Source: a virus
IMG/VR virus record: IMGVR_UViG_3300033233_000088
Location: 1 to 39,368 of that record
DNA length: 39,368 bases
Strand: one strand, 5' to 3'
The position numbers were made by a program, and so were the translations under genes. The number at the start of each line of letters is the position of its first letter. Position 1 is the first letter of the stretch. Shown here piece by piece: positions 14,159 through 36,340 of this stretch. The notes beneath the pieces were generated by a model, which had not been told where the DNA came from, ran no database searches, and saw only the letters and a list, made by a program, of their open reading frames with translations.

Positions 14159-14422
14159 ATGGACAATACATCATGGGAATTATTGTTCAATCGTCTGCCT
14201 GATCTGATATTTTCGGTCGCTAACATCGGCTTCCTGATTCAGTTACGGGCAATGTCAGTAGACGGCGAAAAGATCAAGAAGCTTGACCAGAAGGTTATTG
14301 ACTTAACAGCAGAAAACGAGGCACTACGATATGAGCATGCTCAGCTTTTATCGTATAATCAGAAATTAGAGGGTGAAAACTCAGCATATCGAAAATTTAA
14401 CGATCATCCTGAATCAGGATAA
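14159..14422 (+). CDS. Small protein with hydrophobic N-terminus and coiled coil
   Basis: 87 residues from ATG 14159 (an in-frame ATG at 14138 lies in the preceding small gene). Residues ~9-27 are moderately hydrophobic (L-F-N-R-L-P-D-L-I-F-S-V-A-N-I-G-F-L-I), possibly a membrane segment. Residues ~35-75 form a heptad-like coiled coil (I-K-K-L-D-Q-K-V-I-D-L-T-A-E-N-E-A-L). The position just before the lysis genes suggests a membrane-associated lysis or tail role, which is inference. The last nine bases overlap the 3' end of the minus-strand HNH gene. Confidence 0.6.
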   Translation: MDNTSWELLFNRLPDLIFSVANIGFLIQLRAMSVDGEKIKKLDQKVIDLTAENEALRYEHAQLLSYNQKLEGENSAYRKFNDHPESG

Positions 14423-15049
14423 TATATGAAAATCACTCAAGCTATAGTGTTTCCCCTTATTCCAAGGAATAAGACCTTTTTTGAAACTCGTATGATTAGA
14501 TATATGTTTTCCTATATGACTGACTCTCAGTTTTTTCTTAAATTCTTCACTCCATTTTTTACCTTTATTCCACGAGGATTTTCCTACCTTAAATTTATTA
14601 CCAATAAGTCTGAAATCCCCCTTCTTGAATTCACTGGATGGGTTAAAGTGTTTTCCCTTAAAAGCAATTTTCTGTTTTTCGAAAAGATCAGCATGAGCTT
14701 GTTTTGTATGTTGACCGGGACTACTGAACAATTGCAAATTTTCAATTCTGTTATCAGTTATAATACCGTTGATATGGTGAACAACCTCTTGAGGCAAAAG
14801 ATATCGTCCAATAGATTTTTCCATAATAAAACGATGTTCAGCAATATGATTCTGTTTATCTCTATATGGATGATCGAAACTATATATATACCAATAGCCA
14901 CTTCTTTTAATTCTACCAATATAATGAGCCCAATTTTTGGGGTCCTTGAATCGTTCTTTCAATTTTTGACTAATTTTAGCTATGGTTTCAGGAGATCGTT
15001 TCTTTCCCAACCAATACGTATATCCTTTATGTCCCTTAAGATATGGCAT
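14414..15049 (-). CDS. HNH_3 homing endonuclease with NUMOD3 motifs, minus strand
   Basis: 211 residues; the only clear minus-strand gene. Residues ~45-120 form an HNH_3 domain: H-R-F-I-M-E-K-x-I-G-R-Y-L, then V-V-H-H-I-N-G, then D-N-R-I-E-N-L-Q-L-F, then H-T-K-Q-A-H. The N-terminal S-P-E-T-I-A-K-I-S-Q-K-L-K-E-R-F and two C-terminal W-N-K-G-K boxes are NUMOD3-type DNA-binding repeats. It interrupts the path from the coiled-coil gene to the endolysin and is AT-rich. Its opposite orientation and nine-base overlap with the upstream gene mark it as an insertion. The plus-strand frame across it is only a shadow. Confidence 0.88.
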   Translation of the reverse strand: MPYLKGHKGYTYWLGKKRSPETIAKISQKLKERFKDPKNWAHYIGRIKRSGYWYIYSFDHPYRDKQNHIAEHRFIMEKSIGRYLLPQEVVHHINGIITDNRIENLQLFSSPGQHTKQAHADLFEKQKIAFKGKHFNPSSEFKKGDFRLIGNKFKVGKSSWNKGKKWSEEFKKKLRVSHIGKHISNHTSFKKGLIPWNKGKHYSLSDFHILS

Positions 15050-16865: not shown

Positions 16866-17225
16866 ATGACTCCATTGACACGCTATGAGCAAATTCAGTA
16901 TAGTGAATATCTTTTATCCCCACATTGGCGGAAATTCCGCAGTGAGGTCGTGACCAGTGATTCGTCATGCTGGATATGCGGCTCTACCCACTACCTCAAT
17001 CTCCACCATGTCCGCTATGACCACCTCTACGAAGAGCGGTATGGGTTTGATGTGACGATTCTGTGCCACGATTGTCACACCAAAGCCCACTTCGTTTTAG
17101 GGATTATCAAGATTCCCCTGACCCATAGAAGCCTTACCAGACGGGTGTACTGGTTAAAAGCCGTCTGGGGACTTCGTAGGGGTCGTGTTGACATCTTCCT
17201 GGTATGGGTGTGGCACATGCTATAA
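16866..17225 (+). CDS. HNH endonuclease
   Basis: 119 residues. A zinc-type HNH: C-W-I-C-G (~37-41), L-N-L-H-H-V-R-Y-D (~46-54), Y-G-F-D-V-T-I-L-C-H-D-C-H-T-K-A-H (~61-77). This C-x2-C / HH / C-x2-C-H form is common in phages, both as free-standing mobile nucleases and as packaging-associated HNH proteins. Base composition is close to that of the neighbours, unlike the AT-rich NUMOD3-type HNH genes here, so it may be a long-standing phage gene. A weak match to a ribosome site is all that precedes it. Its 3' end contains the TATAAT of the next element. Confidence 0.8.
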   Translation: MTPLTRYEQIQYSEYLLSPHWRKFRSEVVTSDSSCWICGSTHYLNLHHVRYDHLYEERYGFDVTILCHDCHTKAHFVLGIIKIPLTHRSLTRRVYWLKAVWGLRRGRVDIFLVWVWHML

Positions 17226-18040: not shown

Positions 18041-18644
18041 TTTTACCACCATAAATCATATCGCTCGAAAAGAATTGGAATTGTCGATGAATGAATACGC
18101 TGTCGCTGACCTTGTTTATCATTTATCCAATAATCCAAAAAATGAAACGCCGGGGTGGTGTTATTCGGGAAAAAAAAATATGGGGAAAATGATTGATCTC
18201 AGTGAACAGAGTGTCCATAAAATTCTTAATAGTCTTATAGTAAAAAAACTTATAGAGAAACATCAAGAAACAAAACATCTCCGGGCAACATCAAAATGGT
18301 ACGAAATAGTAGTGGCTAAAGAAAGTTTAGTCGGGCTAAAGAAAGTTGAGCCAGTGGCTAAAGAAAGTTTAGTCGGGGCTAAAGAAAGTTTAGTCGGACA
18401 TATATATAACAATAATATAAACAATAATACTTACAAGGGGGGAACCCTCGATTTAACCTTTAATCAAAAACGCATACTAAAACAAAAATATCCAAATGTA
18501 AATGTAGACATTGCTTATGATAAATTCCGCGCTTACCAGCGAGGTAATGGCAGGACCTATAAAAATCCTCTTGAGGCGTTTCGGGTTTGGCTGATAGAGG
18601 ATAATACAAAAAATAAGCCTAAGAAAGGGATTTTATACATATGA
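18027..18644 (+). CDS. Replication initiator (lambda O-like organisation), winged-helix N-terminus
   Basis: 205 residues. ATG 18027 has AAGGAGG (18015-18021) upstream; the frame is open further up but lies in the previous gene. Residues ~8-90 look like a winged helix (Y-A-V-A-D-L-V-Y-H-L-S, C-Y-S-G-K-K-N-M-G-K-M, S-E-Q-S-V-H-K-I-L-N-S-L-I, S-K-W-Y-E-I-V). Residues ~96-124 are encoded by four DNA repeats (iterons), followed by an Asn-rich linker coded by an AT-rich tract. The C-terminal ~65 residues (Q-K-R-I-L-K-Q-K-Y-P, Y-D-K-F-R-A-Y, N-P-L-E-A-F-R-V-W-L) resemble the C-terminal domain of phage replication proteins. It should bind the iterons and recruit host helicase or a loader. Confidence 0.75.
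   Translation: MQKLNFTTINHIARKELELSMNEYAVADLVYHLSNNPKNETPGWCYSGKKNMGKMIDLSEQSVHKILNSLIVKKLIEKHQETKHLRATSKWYEIVVAKESLVGLKKVEPVAKESLVGAKESLVGHIYNNNINNNTYKGGTLDLTFNQKRILKQKYPNVNVDIAYDKFRAYQRGNGRTYKNPLEAFRVWLIEDNTKNKPKKGILYI
18314..18434. other. Predicted replication origin: four iterons plus AT-rich tract
   Basis: The unit GGCTAAAGAAAGTTTAGTCGG occurs at 18314-18334, 18356-18376 and 18377-18397, with a diverged copy at 18334-18352; starts are 20, 22 and 21 bp apart, i.e. about two helical turns. Each unit contains the dyad CTAAA/TTTAG. The second copy is read in another frame (L-K-K-V-E instead of A-K-E-S-L), so selection acts on the DNA rather than the peptide. An AT-rich run follows (18398-18434), as in lambda ori. 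Confidence 0.75.
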
Positions 18645-19216
18645 TTCGCTATCATTTATACGTTCGAGGCGTTAAAGAGCCATTATTTATCACTGATGTT
18701 CAGAAGCTTTCGTTGGAAAAGGCGCTCAACGATGTTGATGCTCCGGCAACGACAAGTATCGGTAAAAATCTTATTAAGCTCTCAGACATTAAAGGCATTT
18801 TTGAGATTGAAAAAGATACACTACAGGTTGATAGCCGAAGGAAAATGGATCAGACAGATAACGAGTGGAATGGAGAAATGATAAAAATGGCGAATGATGA
18901 TATCACCCAAAAGGTAATGCGGGAGCTTACAATTCGTATATTCCCGGAATTATTCTTACGGAGAGGACTTATTGAATATCAAGAGGATGTTGTTATGCAG
19001 ATTAAAAAGATACTTATTAGCTTTTTTTCCCAAAATACAGGGTTTCCACGGTGTCCTGCAAAATACTGGTTTCCCTTACTCAAAAAATCTATTCACAATC
19101 CGTTTGTTGCTAAATTTTATGAAATTATAGCTAATAATGATTCTGCTTTGTATGTGTGGTGCAAAAAATATCAGATTAAAGAAGTCTCCTTACAGTTGGC
19201 TTTAGATAGTAACTAA
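18641..19216 (+). CDS. Unknown early protein downstream of initiator
   Basis: 191 residues, ATG 18641 in an ATGA overlap with the initiator. The N-terminal ~75 residues are beta-rich and look like a small separate domain (Y-H-L-Y-V-R-G-V-K-E-P-L-F-I-T, ending L-S-D-I-K-G-I-F-E-I). The C-terminal ~110 residues are helical with aromatic clusters (R-C-P-A-K-Y-W-F-P-L-L-K-K). The slot is that of a helicase loader (lambda P) in lambda-type replication modules, but no ATPase or DnaB-binding motif is visible, so this is only a positional guess. Confidence 0.6.
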   Translation: MIRYHLYVRGVKEPLFITDVQKLSLEKALNDVDAPATTSIGKNLIKLSDIKGIFEIEKDTLQVDSRRKMDQTDNEWNGEMIKMANDDITQKVMRELTIRIFPELFLRRGLIEYQEDVVMQIKKILISFFSQNTGFPRCPAKYWFPLLKKSIHNPFVAKFYEIIANNDSALYVWCKKYQIKEVSLQLALDSN

Positions 19217-19237
19217 CTAGGGCATACATAAAAACGC

Positions 19238-19267
19238 TTGACTATCAACAACAAGTTGTAGTATAGT
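19238..19267 (+). promoter_or_regulatory. Sigma70-type promoter
   Basis: TTGACT (19238-19243), 18 bases, TATAGT (19262-19267). The start point would be ~19274, so the mRNA would begin almost at the GGAGGT ribosome site (19274-19279) of the gene at 19286. Confidence 0.6.
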
Positions 19268-19285
19268 ATGGAAGGAGGTGAGTAT

Positions 19286-19573
19286 ATGTTCAGACAAGGA
19301 GATTTATTGATTCGAAAAATAAAAAACGTACCTGAAAAAACGGTCAAAAAGGCAGATAACATCGTTCTTGAGGGCGAAGCGACGGGCCATATGCACCGTC
19401 TCATTGGCGGGGATATTCTGCTGGCTGATTCCCGAATGTTTTTACAGGTACCGGATCGGGCAACGATTATTCATGATGAACATTTTCCAATACCTTTAGA
19501 AAAAGGGGATTATGAAGTAATTAGACAAAAAGAATATAAATCTGAAAATATGACACAAGTAGTTGTAGATTGA
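19286..19573 (+). CDS. Small partner protein of DUF6745-type protein; 3' end apparently regenerated
   Basis: 95 residues. ATG 19286 is chosen for its GGAGGT; an in-frame ATG at 19268 is inside the promoter. The pattern (R-Q-G-D-L-L-I near the start, E-G-E-A-T-G-H-M-H-R-L, F-L-Q-V-P, I-I-H-D-E-H-F-P-I-P-L, G-D-Y-E-V-I-R-Q-K-E-Y) matches a small bacterial family that I associate with neighbours of DUF6745 proteins, one of which lies at 20079. Its biochemical role is not known to me. The last ~75 bases are AT-richer than the rest, and its C-terminal K-S-E-N-M-T-Q-V-V-V-D recurs at the end of the following HNH protein (see findings). Confidence 0.75.
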   Translation: MFRQGDLLIRKIKNVPEKTVKKADNIVLEGEATGHMHRLIGGDILLADSRMFLQVPDRATIIHDEHFPIPLEKGDYEVIRQKEYKSENMTQVVVD

Positions 19574-19576
19574 CAT

Positions 19577-20077
19577 ATGAATGAAATTTGGTTAGACGAT
19601 CTTCTTATCAAAAGATTTAATTCTAAATTTATAGAAAAAGAACACAGTTGTTGGATTTGGGTTGGAGCAAGTAATAAAAGAAAATATGGCTTTTTTAATG
19701 TATATGGAATAATAGAAAAAGCTCATAGAGTTTCTTATATTATTTTTAATAAGATGATAATACCTAATGGATTATTCGTTTTGCATAATTGTGATAATCC
19801 AAAATGTGTAAATCCAAAGCATTTATATTTAGGTACTCAAAAGGAGAATAATATAGATGCTTATAACAGAAATAGAAGATCATCTGGTGGAATTAAAAAT
19901 GGCAATCATAAATTAAATGTAAATCAAGTTATAAAAATAAGAGAAGAATATAAGAGTGGTGACAGTAGTTATAAATTATTAGCCAAAAAATATAATGTTT
20001 CTTGGCCTACAGTAGCAGATATTATTAAATTTAGACATTGGAAGAGTGAGAATATGACGGCGTTGGTCGTTGACTAA
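19577..20077 (+). CDS. HNH_3 endonuclease with C-terminal HTH, fused to a displaced tail of the upstream gene
   Basis: 166 residues. HNH_3 core: C-W-I-W-V-G-A (~26-32), Y-G-F-F, A-H-R-V-S-Y, V-L-H-N-C-D-N-P-K-C-V-N-P-K-H-L-Y-L-G-T (~72-91), N-N-I-D-A. A helix-turn-helix follows at ~118-152 (V-I-K-I-R-E-E-Y, Y-K-L-L-A-K-K-Y-N-V-S, T-V-A-D-I-I). Such proteins normally end just after the F-R-H-W-K box, but here 10 more residues follow (S-E-N-M-T-A-L-V-V-D), matching the end of the upstream gene in 9 of 11 positions counting the shared K. The gene is AT-rich and sits between two genes that belong together, so it is a recent insertion. Confidence 0.88.
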   Translation: MNEIWLDDLLIKRFNSKFIEKEHSCWIWVGASNKRKYGFFNVYGIIEKAHRVSYIIFNKMIIPNGLFVLHNCDNPKCVNPKHLYLGTQKENNIDAYNRNRRSSGGIKNGNHKLNVNQVIKIREEYKSGDSSYKLLAKKYNVSWPTVADIIKFRHWKSENMTALVVD

Positions 20078-20078
20078 T

Positions 20079-21140
20079 ATGGAATTTTCCCAAAAAACGA
20101 AAGACCTGTTGGAGCGTATGAACCGTGTGGCATTGCGGCAGGAATACGTTTTTGATACACCGAAAATAACGGAATTGATTCAGAAGACGTATTTGTTTTT
20201 GTCCTTGTCTGTACCGACAATAGTGTGGGCAAAGGACATTACAGATGAGCATTTTTTGGAGGCCGCCAATGCCGCCAGTGCCACCAATGCCACCAATGCC
20301 ACCAATGCCACCAATGCCACCAATGCCACCAATGCCACCTGGGCCACTTGGGCCACCAGTGCCACCAGTGCCACCTGGGCCACCAGGGCCACCAATGCCA
20401 CCTGGGCCACCAGTGCCACCAGGGCCACCAGTGCCACCAATGCCACCTGGGCCACCAGTGCCACCAATGCCACCTGGGCCACCAGTGCCGCCAGGGCCAC
20501 CAGTGCCACCAATGCCACCAGTGCCGCCAGTGATTATGATTTCGATTGGTTTATTTTTGCTTATGAATTTTTACAAAAAAATAAAGGAAATAAAAACGAT
20601 TATCTTTTCGTAGAGGCAATGGAATTGTTTTTGCAGCTCAAGGAAGCAGGTATGGGATATTTTGCAGAGAAGGATGGCATCCTGTATGTATGTCCGAATC
20701 CGATTATTCGACTCGATGAAAAACTACAATACCACTGTGAGACTGGTCCGTCTATCCATTGGGAGAATGGATTGGAATTATGGTACATTCACGGCGTTGC
20801 CGTGAACGAAAAAATTGTCAAAACTCCCGAAAAACTGACAAAAAAAGACTGGCTGAACGAAAAAAATATGGAGGTAAAACGGATCATTCAGGACCGGATG
20901 CCGGATTTTCCCCAAACAATAGGTGGAAAATCGGTAAAGACAGATGCTCTCGGTGAGCTTCTACAGGTGGATCTTGAGAACGATCCTGAAAAGACCGCTC
21001 GCTACGTCAAGATGAAGGATACCTCGACAGATCGTATCTATTATCTCCGTGTCCCCCCGAAAATAAAGACACCGACAGAAGGAATAGCATGGAGTTTCGG
21101 GATGAAAGCAGAAAAATATAAGCCTACGTTACAAGCCTAA
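20079..21140 (+). CDS. DUF6745-like protein with an expanded (N/W/S/R)-A-T repeat
   Basis: 353 residues from ATG 20079 (TAATATG behind the HNH stop). Residues ~64-150 are 29 tandem tripeptides, mostly N-A-T, W-A-T, S-A-T and R-A-T, coded by a 9-bp repeat. The rest matches my memory of DUF6745: G-P-S-I-H-W-E-N-G-L-E-L-W-Y-I-H-G-V-A-V (~226-245), then Y-Y-L-R-V-P-P-K-I-K-T-P-T-E-G-I-A-W-S-F-G-M (~316-337) near the end. Function is unknown to me. The small protein at 19286 is its usual partner, now separated by the HNH gene. Confidence 0.75.
   Translation: MEFSQKTKDLLERMNRVALRQEYVFDTPKITELIQKTYLFLSLSVPTIVWAKDITDEHFLEAANAASATNATNATNATNATNATNATWATWATSATSATWATRATNATWATSATRATSATNATWATSATNATWATSAARATSATNATSAASDYDFDWFIFAYEFLQKNKGNKNDYLFVEAMELFLQLKEAGMGYFAEKDGILYVCPNPIIRLDEKLQYHCETGPSIHWENGLELWYIHGVAVNEKIVKTPEKLTKKDWLNEKNMEVKRIIQDRMPDFPQTIGGKSVKTDALGELLQVDLENDPEKTARYVKMKDTSTDRIYYLRVPPKIKTPTEGIAWSFGMKAEKYKPTLQA
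20268..20528 (+). repeat. Coding minisatellite, 29 units of 9 bp
   Basis: Units of the form (AAT/TGG/AGT/AGG)-GCC-ACC run without a break inside the DUF6745-like gene. Six identical AAT-type units stand near the start; the remainder is a mix of four unit types, with GCC-GCC at a few places. The repeat keeps all three plus-strand frames open (one would read as a Pro-Pro-Met / Gly-Pro-Pro chain), so the other frames here are artefacts. Copy number is likely to vary between isolates. Confidence 0.95.
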
Positions 21141-21142
21141 GT

Positions 21143-21385
21143 ATGCCTCTTGAACCAGACCACCGGATGTACCGCACTCCCTTCCTCTCCTCAGACTATA
21201 CTCCGCTCTACTTCGGGGATATCCTCACCCTCATAACTGACGACAGCAGTGTCCGGTATGTTGTCGTCTATGATGACGACCTTCATGAGGCCGTAAAAAA
21301 TACGGCAACGGGCACGCTCGAAAAACTCACAGAAGCAGTCGGGGCCAGATTCCTTATCAGGGCCAGAATCGAGGAGAATCTATGA
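21143..21385 (+). CDS. Small acidic protein, unknown
   Basis: 80 residues, ATG 21143 two bases after the DUF6745-like stop. The middle is beta-rich and acidic (D-I-L-T-L-I-T-D-D-S-S-V-R-Y-V-V-V-Y-D-D-D). No family is recognised. It is coupled to the next gene by an ATGA overlap. Confidence 0.6.
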   Translation: MPLEPDHRMYRTPFLSSDYTPLYFGDILTLITDDSSVRYVVVYDDDLHEAVKNTATGTLEKLTEAVGARFLIRARIEENL

Positions 21386-21546
21386 CCGAAGCCGAAAAAA
21401 AAGCACTCCGTACAGCGTTTGCGCGAAGTGGTGGCAACGCAACGCTCCACCGCCGGGGTCGGGATCACTACCGCAGGATGAACGAATTATCCCAGATTGC
21501 GCGGGGCATAAAAGTGGTCAACGTGGATAAGGTTGTTGGTACGTGA
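21382..21546 (+). CDS. 54-residue basic protein, unknown
   Basis: ATG 21382 overlaps the previous stop (ATGA) and the frame ends with TGA at 21544-21546. The product is basic and helical (T-E-A-E-K-K-A-L-R-T-A-F-A-R-S-G-G, H-R-R-G-R-D-H-Y-R-R-M). The overlap and codon use support translation. It closes this small operon; a promoter for the next gene follows within 12 bases. Confidence 0.6.
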   Translation: MTEAEKKALRTAFARSGGNATLHRRGRDHYRRMNELSQIARGIKVVNVDKVVGT

Positions 21547-22024: not shown

Positions 22025-22633
22025 ATGAATAAAAAAGCCCTGCTTTCCGAATACCGAAGTACACAGGTCCGCGTTAGAGATCTAAGGTGGAGACTAGAGG
22101 ATATAGCGTATATATCATTTTGTCTGGTTATGGTTTTCTCGTTCGCACTCCATCTCAGAAGCCTTCTCCCAGCCCCCACAAAGCCCGTAGACGGCTCAAT
22201 GACAGCCGGAGGGATCATTTCACCGGTGTGGGCGAGTTCGAGCACGACTATACCCGGTCTATTGTCCCCGTCTCTCTCCCCAACCCCCCGTCCGGAAACG
22301 GTTGACGATCTCGTCACAAAGTATGCAGACCGCTACGGATCCAGTATCGACGAAAAAGCCAAAATCAAGGTCATGCTTCACTTCTTGCTCTATAGAGAAT
22401 CCCGCTATGGACGGGATACCGGATGCGGTGACGGCGGCAAGGCCTGCGGTCCTGCCCAATTCTGGCAGGAGACGTATGTAGCCCTTCGTACCGAGATGAT
22501 TACCAAGGGTCTGACGACTGAGCTGGGTAGTCGGGAGAATATGCACGATGCTATACAGACGACAGCCTATGCGTTATCTACCGGACGGGCGGTAGCATGG
22601 GGACCTATATTAAGAAAGGAAATAAAATTATGA
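22025..22633 (+). CDS. Membrane-anchored lysozyme/transglycosylase-like protein
   Basis: 202 residues. Residues ~28-46 form one hydrophobic span after a basic N-terminus (signal anchor: I-A-Y-I-S-F-C-L-V-M-V-F-S-F-A-L). A Ser/Pro/Thr-rich linker (~55-92) leads to a lytic-transglycosylase-like domain: catalytic Glu125 in Y-R-E-S-R-Y-G, then G-C-G-D-G-G-K-A-C-G-P-A-Q-F (~133-146) and a final helix with the Ala-Tyr pattern of this fold. It would cut glycan strands from the outer face of the membrane. It is far from the CHAP lysis cassette and among early genes, so a role in cell-wall remodelling or superinfection control is as likely as lysis. Confidence 0.7.
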   Translation: MNKKALLSEYRSTQVRVRDLRWRLEDIAYISFCLVMVFSFALHLRSLLPAPTKPVDGSMTAGGIISPVWASSSTTIPGLLSPSLSPTPRPETVDDLVTKYADRYGSSIDEKAKIKVMLHFLLYRESRYGRDTGCGDGGKACGPAQFWQETYVALRTEMITKGLTTELGSRENMHDAIQTTAYALSTGRAVAWGPILRKEIKL

Positions 22634-23118
22634 ATGCACAACACGAAGCAGACTATCAGCGATTACTCGATAAAGATAGAAAATATAAGGCTCACCATAA
22701 GGCCTACCATAAGGCCTACCAGCAGAGACCGGAGGTTAAGGCCTACCATAAGGCCTACCAGCAGAGACCGGAGGTTAAGGCCTACCAGAAGGCCTACCAC
22801 CAGAGACCGGAGGTTAAGGCCTACCGGAAGGCCTACCACCAGAGACCGGAGGTTAAGGCCTACCGGAAGGCCTACCACCAGAGACCGGAGGTTAAGGCCT
22901 ACCGGAAGGCCTACCAGAAGGCCTACCATAAGGCCTACGATCAGAGACCGGAAGTTAAGGCCTACCGGAAGGCCTACCACCAGAGACCGGAGGCCAAGGC
23001 CTACCAGAAGGCCTACCAGAAGGCCTACTACTTCAGAAAAATTGACCCAGCAACGAAAAAAGTACGAATCATAAAATACAAAAAATTACTGGAATTATAT
23101 GGCAACCAAGGATTATAG
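22630..23118 (+). CDS. Repeat protein with A-Y-x-K-A-Y / Q-R-P-E-V-K units
   Basis: 162 residues, ATG 22630 in an ATGA overlap with the lysozyme-like gene (an in-frame ATG at 22597 is inside that gene). After ~20 residues, seven 12-13-residue units combine K-A-Y-(H/Q/R)-K-A-Y with (Q/H/D)-Q-R-P-E-(V/A)-K up to ~133, and a basic helical end follows. The composition (Lys, Tyr, Arg) is very biased and suggests RNA or DNA binding, or contact with an acidic surface. Function unknown. Confidence 0.7.
   Translation: MNAQHEADYQRLLDKDRKYKAHHKAYHKAYQQRPEVKAYHKAYQQRPEVKAYQKAYHQRPEVKAYRKAYHQRPEVKAYRKAYHQRPEVKAYRKAYQKAYHKAYDQRPEVKAYRKAYHQRPEAKAYQKAYQKAYYFRKIDPATKKVRIIKYKKLLELYGNQGL
22687..23030 (+). repeat. 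Coding tandem repeat, 36-39 bp units with 12-bp subunits
   Basis: The block is made of AAGGCCTACCxx subunits and the spacer CAGAGACCGGAGGTT. Units are close to identical, so expansion is recent. It stays in one frame throughout and is coding; it is not a CRISPR array because the intervals are themselves repeats. Confidence 0.9.
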
Positions 23119-35827: not shown

Positions 35828-36340
35828 ATGATATCAGAGGAAGTACGGAAAAAAATTAGTGAGCGTACTCGATTGGCAATGTCCAATCCGCAGGTGCGAA
35901 AAAAAATACGATTAGGAAAATTGGGAAAACCATCATGGAATAAAGGTATAAAATATACAGAAGAAGAAAAGAAAAAATTAAATATAAGTGGATTGATTTT
36001 AAGTGCTGGCTGGAATAAAGGAATAAAACGTTACTGGAGTTCATCAACAGAATTTAAGATAGGTCAAAAGGCATGGAACAAAGGCAAAAAATTTCCTGAA
36101 AGATCGAACGAAAATAGTCCTAATTGGAAAGGTGAAAATGTTAGTTTTGCGGGAATACATAAATGGGTAAATAGACATAAAGGAAAGCCTAAATTTTGTG
36201 AAATTTGTCATATTGAAAGTAAATATATCCATTGGTCAAATATAGATCATACGTATAGAAGAAAATTAGAAGATTTTAGACCTTTATGTCCGAAATGTCA
36301 TAAAAAATACGATTTACAAAATAGATTAGTTTTTCATTAA
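35828..36340 (+). CDS. HNH endonuclease with NUMOD3 repeats
   Basis: 170 residues. Three W-N-K-G-(I/K)-K boxes within ~36-90 and the S-x4-K-K-I-S-E-R-T-R start are NUMOD3-type. The C-terminal nuclease part has C-E-I-C (~131-134), W-S-N-I-D-H-T-Y-R-R (~143-152) and C-P-K-C-H-K-K-Y (~160-167): a zinc-bound HNH. AT-rich, with its own promoter, between the fibre gene and a unit starting with its own GGAGG. A free-standing homing nuclease. Confidence 0.85.
   Translation: MISEEVRKKISERTRLAMSNPQVRKKIRLGKLGKPSWNKGIKYTEEEKKKLNISGLILSAGWNKGIKRYWSSSTEFKIGQKAWNKGKKFPERSNENSPNWKGENVSFAGIHKWVNRHKGKPKFCEICHIESKYIHWSNIDHTYRRKLEDFRPLCPKCHKKYDLQNRLVFH

Follow-up and report, generated by a model that had tools for sequence, protein, structure and literature searches.

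The stretch of DNA under study, a 39,368-nucleotide virus record from IMG/VR (IMGVR_UViG_3300033233_000088) referred to here as the window, carries three closely spaced genes on one strand (Table 1). The first, which we call the host gene, belongs to the phrog_27831 family; the second encodes an HNH_3 endonuclease and begins with an ATG 3 nt past the host gene stop; the third is a DUF6745 gene, the ATG of which lies 1 nt past the stop of the HNH gene. The HNH protein matched PF13392 with 30.2 bits (cut-off, 24.8), and the invariant H, C, D, and N columns of the HNH_3 alignment are all present. Its C-terminal region matched HTH_28 with an E value of 0.004, under the curated cut-off, and is alignable with that of relatives. 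The host gene and the HNH gene are separate open reading frames with their own stops. A group I intron and an intein were both ruled out, with no Rfam match in positions 18600 to 21400 and no intein domain in a Pfam scan, and promoter-like sites were not above the level of shuffled sequence.

Table 1. Features of the window locus and of two further loci with the same layout
Feature	Position	Strand	Basis
Host gene, phrog_27831 family, now hybrid with a foreign 3' end	19286..19573	+	ORF; PHROG match, E=9e-10; homologue C-termini
Imported host gene 3' end, ~36 codons with stop	19466..19573, left edge approximate (19460-19519)	+	GC change point; GC3
In-gene tail copy, KSENMTQVVVD and stop, differently spelled	19538..19573	+	Sequence and codon comparison
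HNH_3 endonuclease gene, 166 aa	19577..20077	+	PF13392; alignment; PHROG endonuclease families
Displaced native host tail, KSENMTALVVD and stop, in frame with the nuclease and supplying its stop	20042..20077	+	Without counterpart in HNH relatives; GC3; LVVD ending
DUF6745 gene with long Ala-Thr-rich repeat, native downstream partner	20079..21140	+	PF20530, 69 bits; synteny in relatives
Endonuclease_7 gene in 3' end of host gene homologue, displaced native tail in frame	L178:2995-3950		PF02945; tail comparison
Endonuclease_7 gene in 3' end of chromosomal VIT-family gene, native tail left out of frame	L326:522-1810		PF01988; tail comparison

The host gene ends AAA TCT GAA AAT ATG ACA CAA GTA GTT GTA GAT TGA, and the HNH gene ends AAG AGT GAG AAT ATG ACG GCG TTG GTC GTT GAC TAA. 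Nine of the 11 encoded residues are identical, as a sequence-only reading of this DNA had stated; the bases differ at 13 of the 33 coding positions, where that reading had counted 12, and at 14 of 36 with the stop included. Its description of the differences as mostly silent holds, since 7 of the 9 codons for shared residues carry silent changes. Tails were compared in a stop-anchored manner at 152 nuclease loci, comprising 91 phage HNH_3, 30 cellular HNH_3, and 31 Endonuclease_7 loci, along with 909 mismatched controls. The window pair scored 56 and no control exceeded 38. The likeness of the two window tails is not due to chance.

In an alignment of HNH protein relatives, most end at or shortly after W-K, and the window protein runs on with SENMTALVVD. 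The tail is thus an addition to this HNH protein because its relatives stop near W-K, which agrees with the description of HNH_3 proteins in the sequence-only reading. An SENMT tail on HNH relatives at other loci had been named there as evidence that would count against the proposed history, and the same tail was seen at none of 120 other HNH_3 loci. The window itself has a further HNH_3/NUMOD3 gene at 14414-15049, encoded on the minus strand, and unclassified HNH-looking ORFs at 148-621, 16866-17225, and 35828-36340; a search around these four gave no tail repeat.

Homologues of the host protein nearly all terminate in ..QREY....VxD, and in many of them the next gene, often DUF6745, begins a few bases past the stop; in most relatives, a DUF6745 gene follows the host gene or is found close to it. 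Such a tail is therefore native to the upstream gene, given this shared ending with the next gene often close behind. The nearest phage homologues end in EDMERLVVD (L175), AVRLVVD (L176), and DKTKLVVD (L181), all with the LVVD of the displaced window tail, and, judged by them, the HNH copy with LVVD seems closer to the native form than the in-gene copy with VVVD. The suggestion that the host gene is essential was unsupported. Within the DUF6745 gene of the window, positions 20262-20530 form a long near-perfect Ala-Thr/Asn-rich triplet repeat, and a different, Ala-Gly-rich repeat occupies the same place in L175. Another repeat-built ORF of the window, made of KAYHKAYQQRPEVKAY-type units, lies at 22597-23118. 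The whole host-gene/DUF6745 pair is duplicated in tandem in L250 (2932-6000), and the second tail there was rejected as a further case because it arises from duplication of the whole gene pair. In L294 (930-2575), a peptide end RCLECGAMEEL/I followed by a stop is found both upstream of the host gene and downstream of the DUF6745 gene, as if the gene pair had been inserted into that peptide or were flanked by repeats.

A two-state GC fit over positions 19220-20262 gave a single AT-rich block at 19466-20039, with 25.3% GC compared to 42.9% outside and a log-likelihood gain of 18. The edge intervals are 19460-19519 on the left and 19993-20059 on the right, and the right edge falls just short of the displaced tail at 20042. 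The block consists of the last ~36 codons of the host gene and the HNH core. GC3 in the host gene is 26/59 for codons 1 to 59 versus 3/36 for codons 60 to 95 (P=2e-4, a value that flatters since the codon-59 split was picked after inspection of the profile; the change-point fit is less affected). In the HNH gene, GC3 is 22/155 for the body versus 8/11 for the tail (P=5e-5), and the composition of the displaced tail is the phage's own. Because the block spans the host 3' end and the HNH body, the imported segment would be a donor gene end plus a nuclease gene, and because it ends at the tail junction, the HNH gene appears to have come with the foreign gene end, shifting the native tail to the HNH C-terminus. 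The recoding of the in-gene tail is best read as a mark of foreign origin. The arrival of a new tail with the nuclease, as proposed in the sequence-only reading, stood, and the length of 11 codons given there did not, as the GC fit places it at about 36 codons. No AT-rich donor of the block was found, and a protein comparison of host codons 1 to 59 with codons 60 to 95 across 149 relatives named no donor lineage for the latter.

The same gene end is occupied by a different nuclease in L178, an IMG/VR phage contig. There, the host gene homologue ends REYHPEAIRNVAD and stop, and 2 bases later begins a gene for a 208-residue Endonuclease_7 protein (PF02945, E=3e-20) that ends AREYTPEAVRNVAD and stop, with the next gene following. 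The displaced copy is nearer to the tails of relatives in 43 cases and the in-gene copy in 12, among 64 distinct relatives' tails, a sign test on these counts being a guide only because the relatives share ancestry. With HNH_3 in the window and Endonuclease_7 in L178, this gene end has thus received nucleases of two families in the same manner. In both, the nuclease frame runs into the displaced tail and takes over its stop. The host stop is 3 nt from the nuclease ATG in the window and 2 nt in L178, the displaced stop is 1 nt and 5 nt, respectively, from the next ATG, and these short spacings suggest that translational coupling is retained in both phage cases.

A third locus, L326, comes from the genome of a bacterium in the same phylum as Actinoallomurus. 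Its VIT-family gene (PF01988) terminates in QVLVGGILVFLSGILIGSA and stop; an Endonuclease_7 gene comes next, and behind it lies a remnant, QVVLGGALVFASGILIGSA and stop, in a different frame from the nuclease gene. In-frame adoption of a displaced tail is therefore not general. The remnant is nearer to the tails of all 21 nuclease-free VIT gene relatives of the same class that were compared, matching a mean of 79.5% of bases versus 62.4% for the in-gene copy. Identity of the in-gene copy to these relatives is ~58 to 62% over the last ~25 codons only and 65 to 85% before. Close alleles lacking the nuclease are present in L432, L433, and L435, which makes L326 the best case for cleavage assays. 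It had been proposed that alleles lacking the nuclease should resemble the displaced tail, and at the DNA level L326 passed this test with 21 of 21 relatives. For the window itself, the same comparison was less telling: L175 favors the displaced tail weakly (21 versus 17 of 33 bases), and neither L176 nor L181 distinguishes between the two tails. A close HNH-free relative of the window was absent from the data searched, L175 being the nearest at 49% identity. BLAST of the whole region against phages returned a sole match of ~100 bases in the HNH gene, and searches of IMG/VR with single proteins found nothing closely related, with no match for the HNH protein, none for DUF6745, and one at 36% for the host protein. 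Terminase relatives reached up to 71%, and the host gene was absent from the contigs examined. Which tail is native is thus clear in L326, fairly well indicated in L178, and, in the window, suggested by composition.

We consider it very probable, at about 0.88, that the HNH gene lies in the host gene 3' end as part of a donor block, that the host gene is now a hybrid, and that the native tail was displaced onto the nuclease. This is the core of what the sequence-only reading had proposed, and it gains support from the family anatomy, the GC block, and the two similar cases. A free-standing, homing-type HNH gene would have reached the host 3' end through recombination, the donor being one that already carried it behind a homologous, AT-rich gene. 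The transferred block would have been the donor's last ~36 codons with their stop, followed by the nuclease, and the host gene would be complete but hybrid because the block brought a donor gene end with a stop. The native last 11 codons and stop would have been shifted downstream and joined in frame to the nuclease, so that the DUF6745 gene would keep its original stop-to-start junction and translational coupling would be retained. Presumably, the nuclease cuts the uninterrupted host 3' end, and repair of the break with co-conversion would copy the nuclease and the donor gene end together. The foreign end is probably no longer a target because it is spelled differently, and the hybrid gene would thereby be spared from cleavage.

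The simplest route to two tails would be a duplication at insertion, target-site-like or tandem, followed by divergence of the copies in place, and the remaining pairs, phage and cellular, are similar in base identity at 64% (37/60 in L326), which fits such an origin. We regard it as improbable nonetheless, for the differences are mostly silent even though the displaced copy would have been free to change residues, and the AT-rich block takes in ~25 codons upstream of the tail. L326 also argues against duplication with decay of the freed copy, since in each of the 21 comparisons conservation lies with the untranslated copy and divergence with the one inside the gene, the opposite of expectation. 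Still harder to accept is that the tail serves a function in the nuclease and resembles the upstream gene by convergence or chance. The tail is indeed translated in frame, but 9 of 11 shared residues and a score far above every control speak against coincidence, relatives do without it, and its composition is unlike that of the HNH body. An assembly artefact joining two phage strains might be suspected in a single metagenomic contig with an AT-rich block, and it is about equally implausible: the open frames and gene spacing are intact at both junctions, and the same layout recurs in two independent assemblies with other nucleases.

A more serious contender, though an unlikely one, is that ordinary mosaic exchange brought in the HNH gene together with the donor's gene end and that nuclease-driven homing played no part. 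Phage genomes are mosaic, and nuclease genes are located at exchange boundaries (PMC10448857). Against this, the layout occurs in three cases, involving two nuclease families and two host genes; every time the exchanged part is confined to a gene end and a nuclease gene, and the native tail stays behind. Mosaic exchange is compatible with the two tails, the foreign block, the hybrid gene, and the recurrence with a second nuclease family, all of which are established, as well as with displacement of the native tail, and the conflict with insertion by homing concerns the driver only.

The closest known systems are fungal mORFs. In Glomus mitochondria, atp6, atp9, cox2, and nad3 have the same layout, with in-gene copies 64 to 81% and displaced copies 91 to 98% identical to a close relative, and an earlier report, from 1994, describes it in Allomyces atp6 (PMC3630166). 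The likeness extends to a nuclease gene at the 3' end, a foreign in-gene C-terminus with mostly silent differences, and a native C-terminus behind the nuclease that is nearer to sister species (PMC3630166), the last being clear here in L326 and weaker in L178 and the window. The defining feature of the fungal elements, two C-termini, one in the host gene and one behind the nuclease, was found in the window, L178, and L326. However, the fungal nucleases are LAGLIDADG or GIY-YIG proteins in mitochondria with far longer tails (PMC3630166), compared to HNH_3 and Endonuclease_7 in phages and a bacterial chromosome here, and in the two phage cases the nuclease adopts the displaced tail and stop. The window element works like fungal mORFs with C-terminal duplication without being a member of that group, being an HNH_3 gene in a phage record. 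The principle is thus known, and what is new is the hosts, the nuclease families, and the adoption of the displaced tail by the nuclease. Accommodation without an intron or intein had been put forward as a new way for a homing gene to occupy a gene; the free-standing nature of the HNH gene stands, and the fungal precedent (PMC3630166) removes the claim that the way is wholly new.

Among phage systems, the T4 mob genes are likewise HNH genes without an intron or intein between conserved genes, but the accessible part of that source describes them as intergenic or gene-splitting (mobA in T4, mobE in Aeh1) and describes no replacement gene end (PMC2988022). A related example from phages is mobA of T4, located in the topoisomerase gene, which it splits (PMC3014915). 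F-CphI of cyanophage S-PM2 resembles L178 and L326 in being an Endo VII-type nuclease beside its target gene, a status that is putative in our two loci; there, a group I intron in psbA gives protection from self-cleavage, whereas here the differently spelled gene end would serve (PMC6083498). A phage or bacterial report of a nuclease with a replacement gene end was not found in the open literature, the only literature covered, and this absence is weak evidence.

With at least two nuclease families in phages and bacteria, there is an even chance that these loci represent a class of cassettes carrying a cleavage-resistant replacement 3' end of the target gene, some of which adopt the displaced tail and stop. 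Engineered home-and-rescue gene-drive designs offer a parallel to nuclease cassettes with a replacement gene end, and if the class is real, such cassettes would be the natural counterpart of those designs. Tail adoption would then keep the coupling to the next gene and permit residence in genes that must keep working. The findings extend the occupation of coding sequence by putative homing genes without introns or inteins to phages and bacteria, with two nuclease families having done so at the same gene end. The layout flags genes of hybrid make-up, with 3' ends derived from other lineages, and points to empty alleles for cleavage and protection assays. Across genomes it has a simple signature, namely a stop-anchored repeat of the tail on both sides of a nuclease gene.

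In the stop-anchored test, L326 scored 71, L178 scored 59, and the next real locus after these and the window scored 35, compared to 38 for the best control; a search around 90 other HNH_3 loci gave no tail repeats. Because the window and L178 were chosen beforehand, L326 alone counts toward the unbiased yield, one in ~150. A nuclease in this layout was present at 2 of 122 distinct upstream-gene loci with at least 500 bases downstream. The nuclease-plus-displaced-tail layout is rare. A de novo scan of all loci in the set added one candidate, L357 (434-2533), in which a 423-residue gene ends YLLDRKAVVRNQV and stop and a remnant, YLFDRKAVVKQQV and stop, lies ~830 bases downstream. Its insert has no recognizable nuclease, and the cassette may therefore be decayed or of a different kind.
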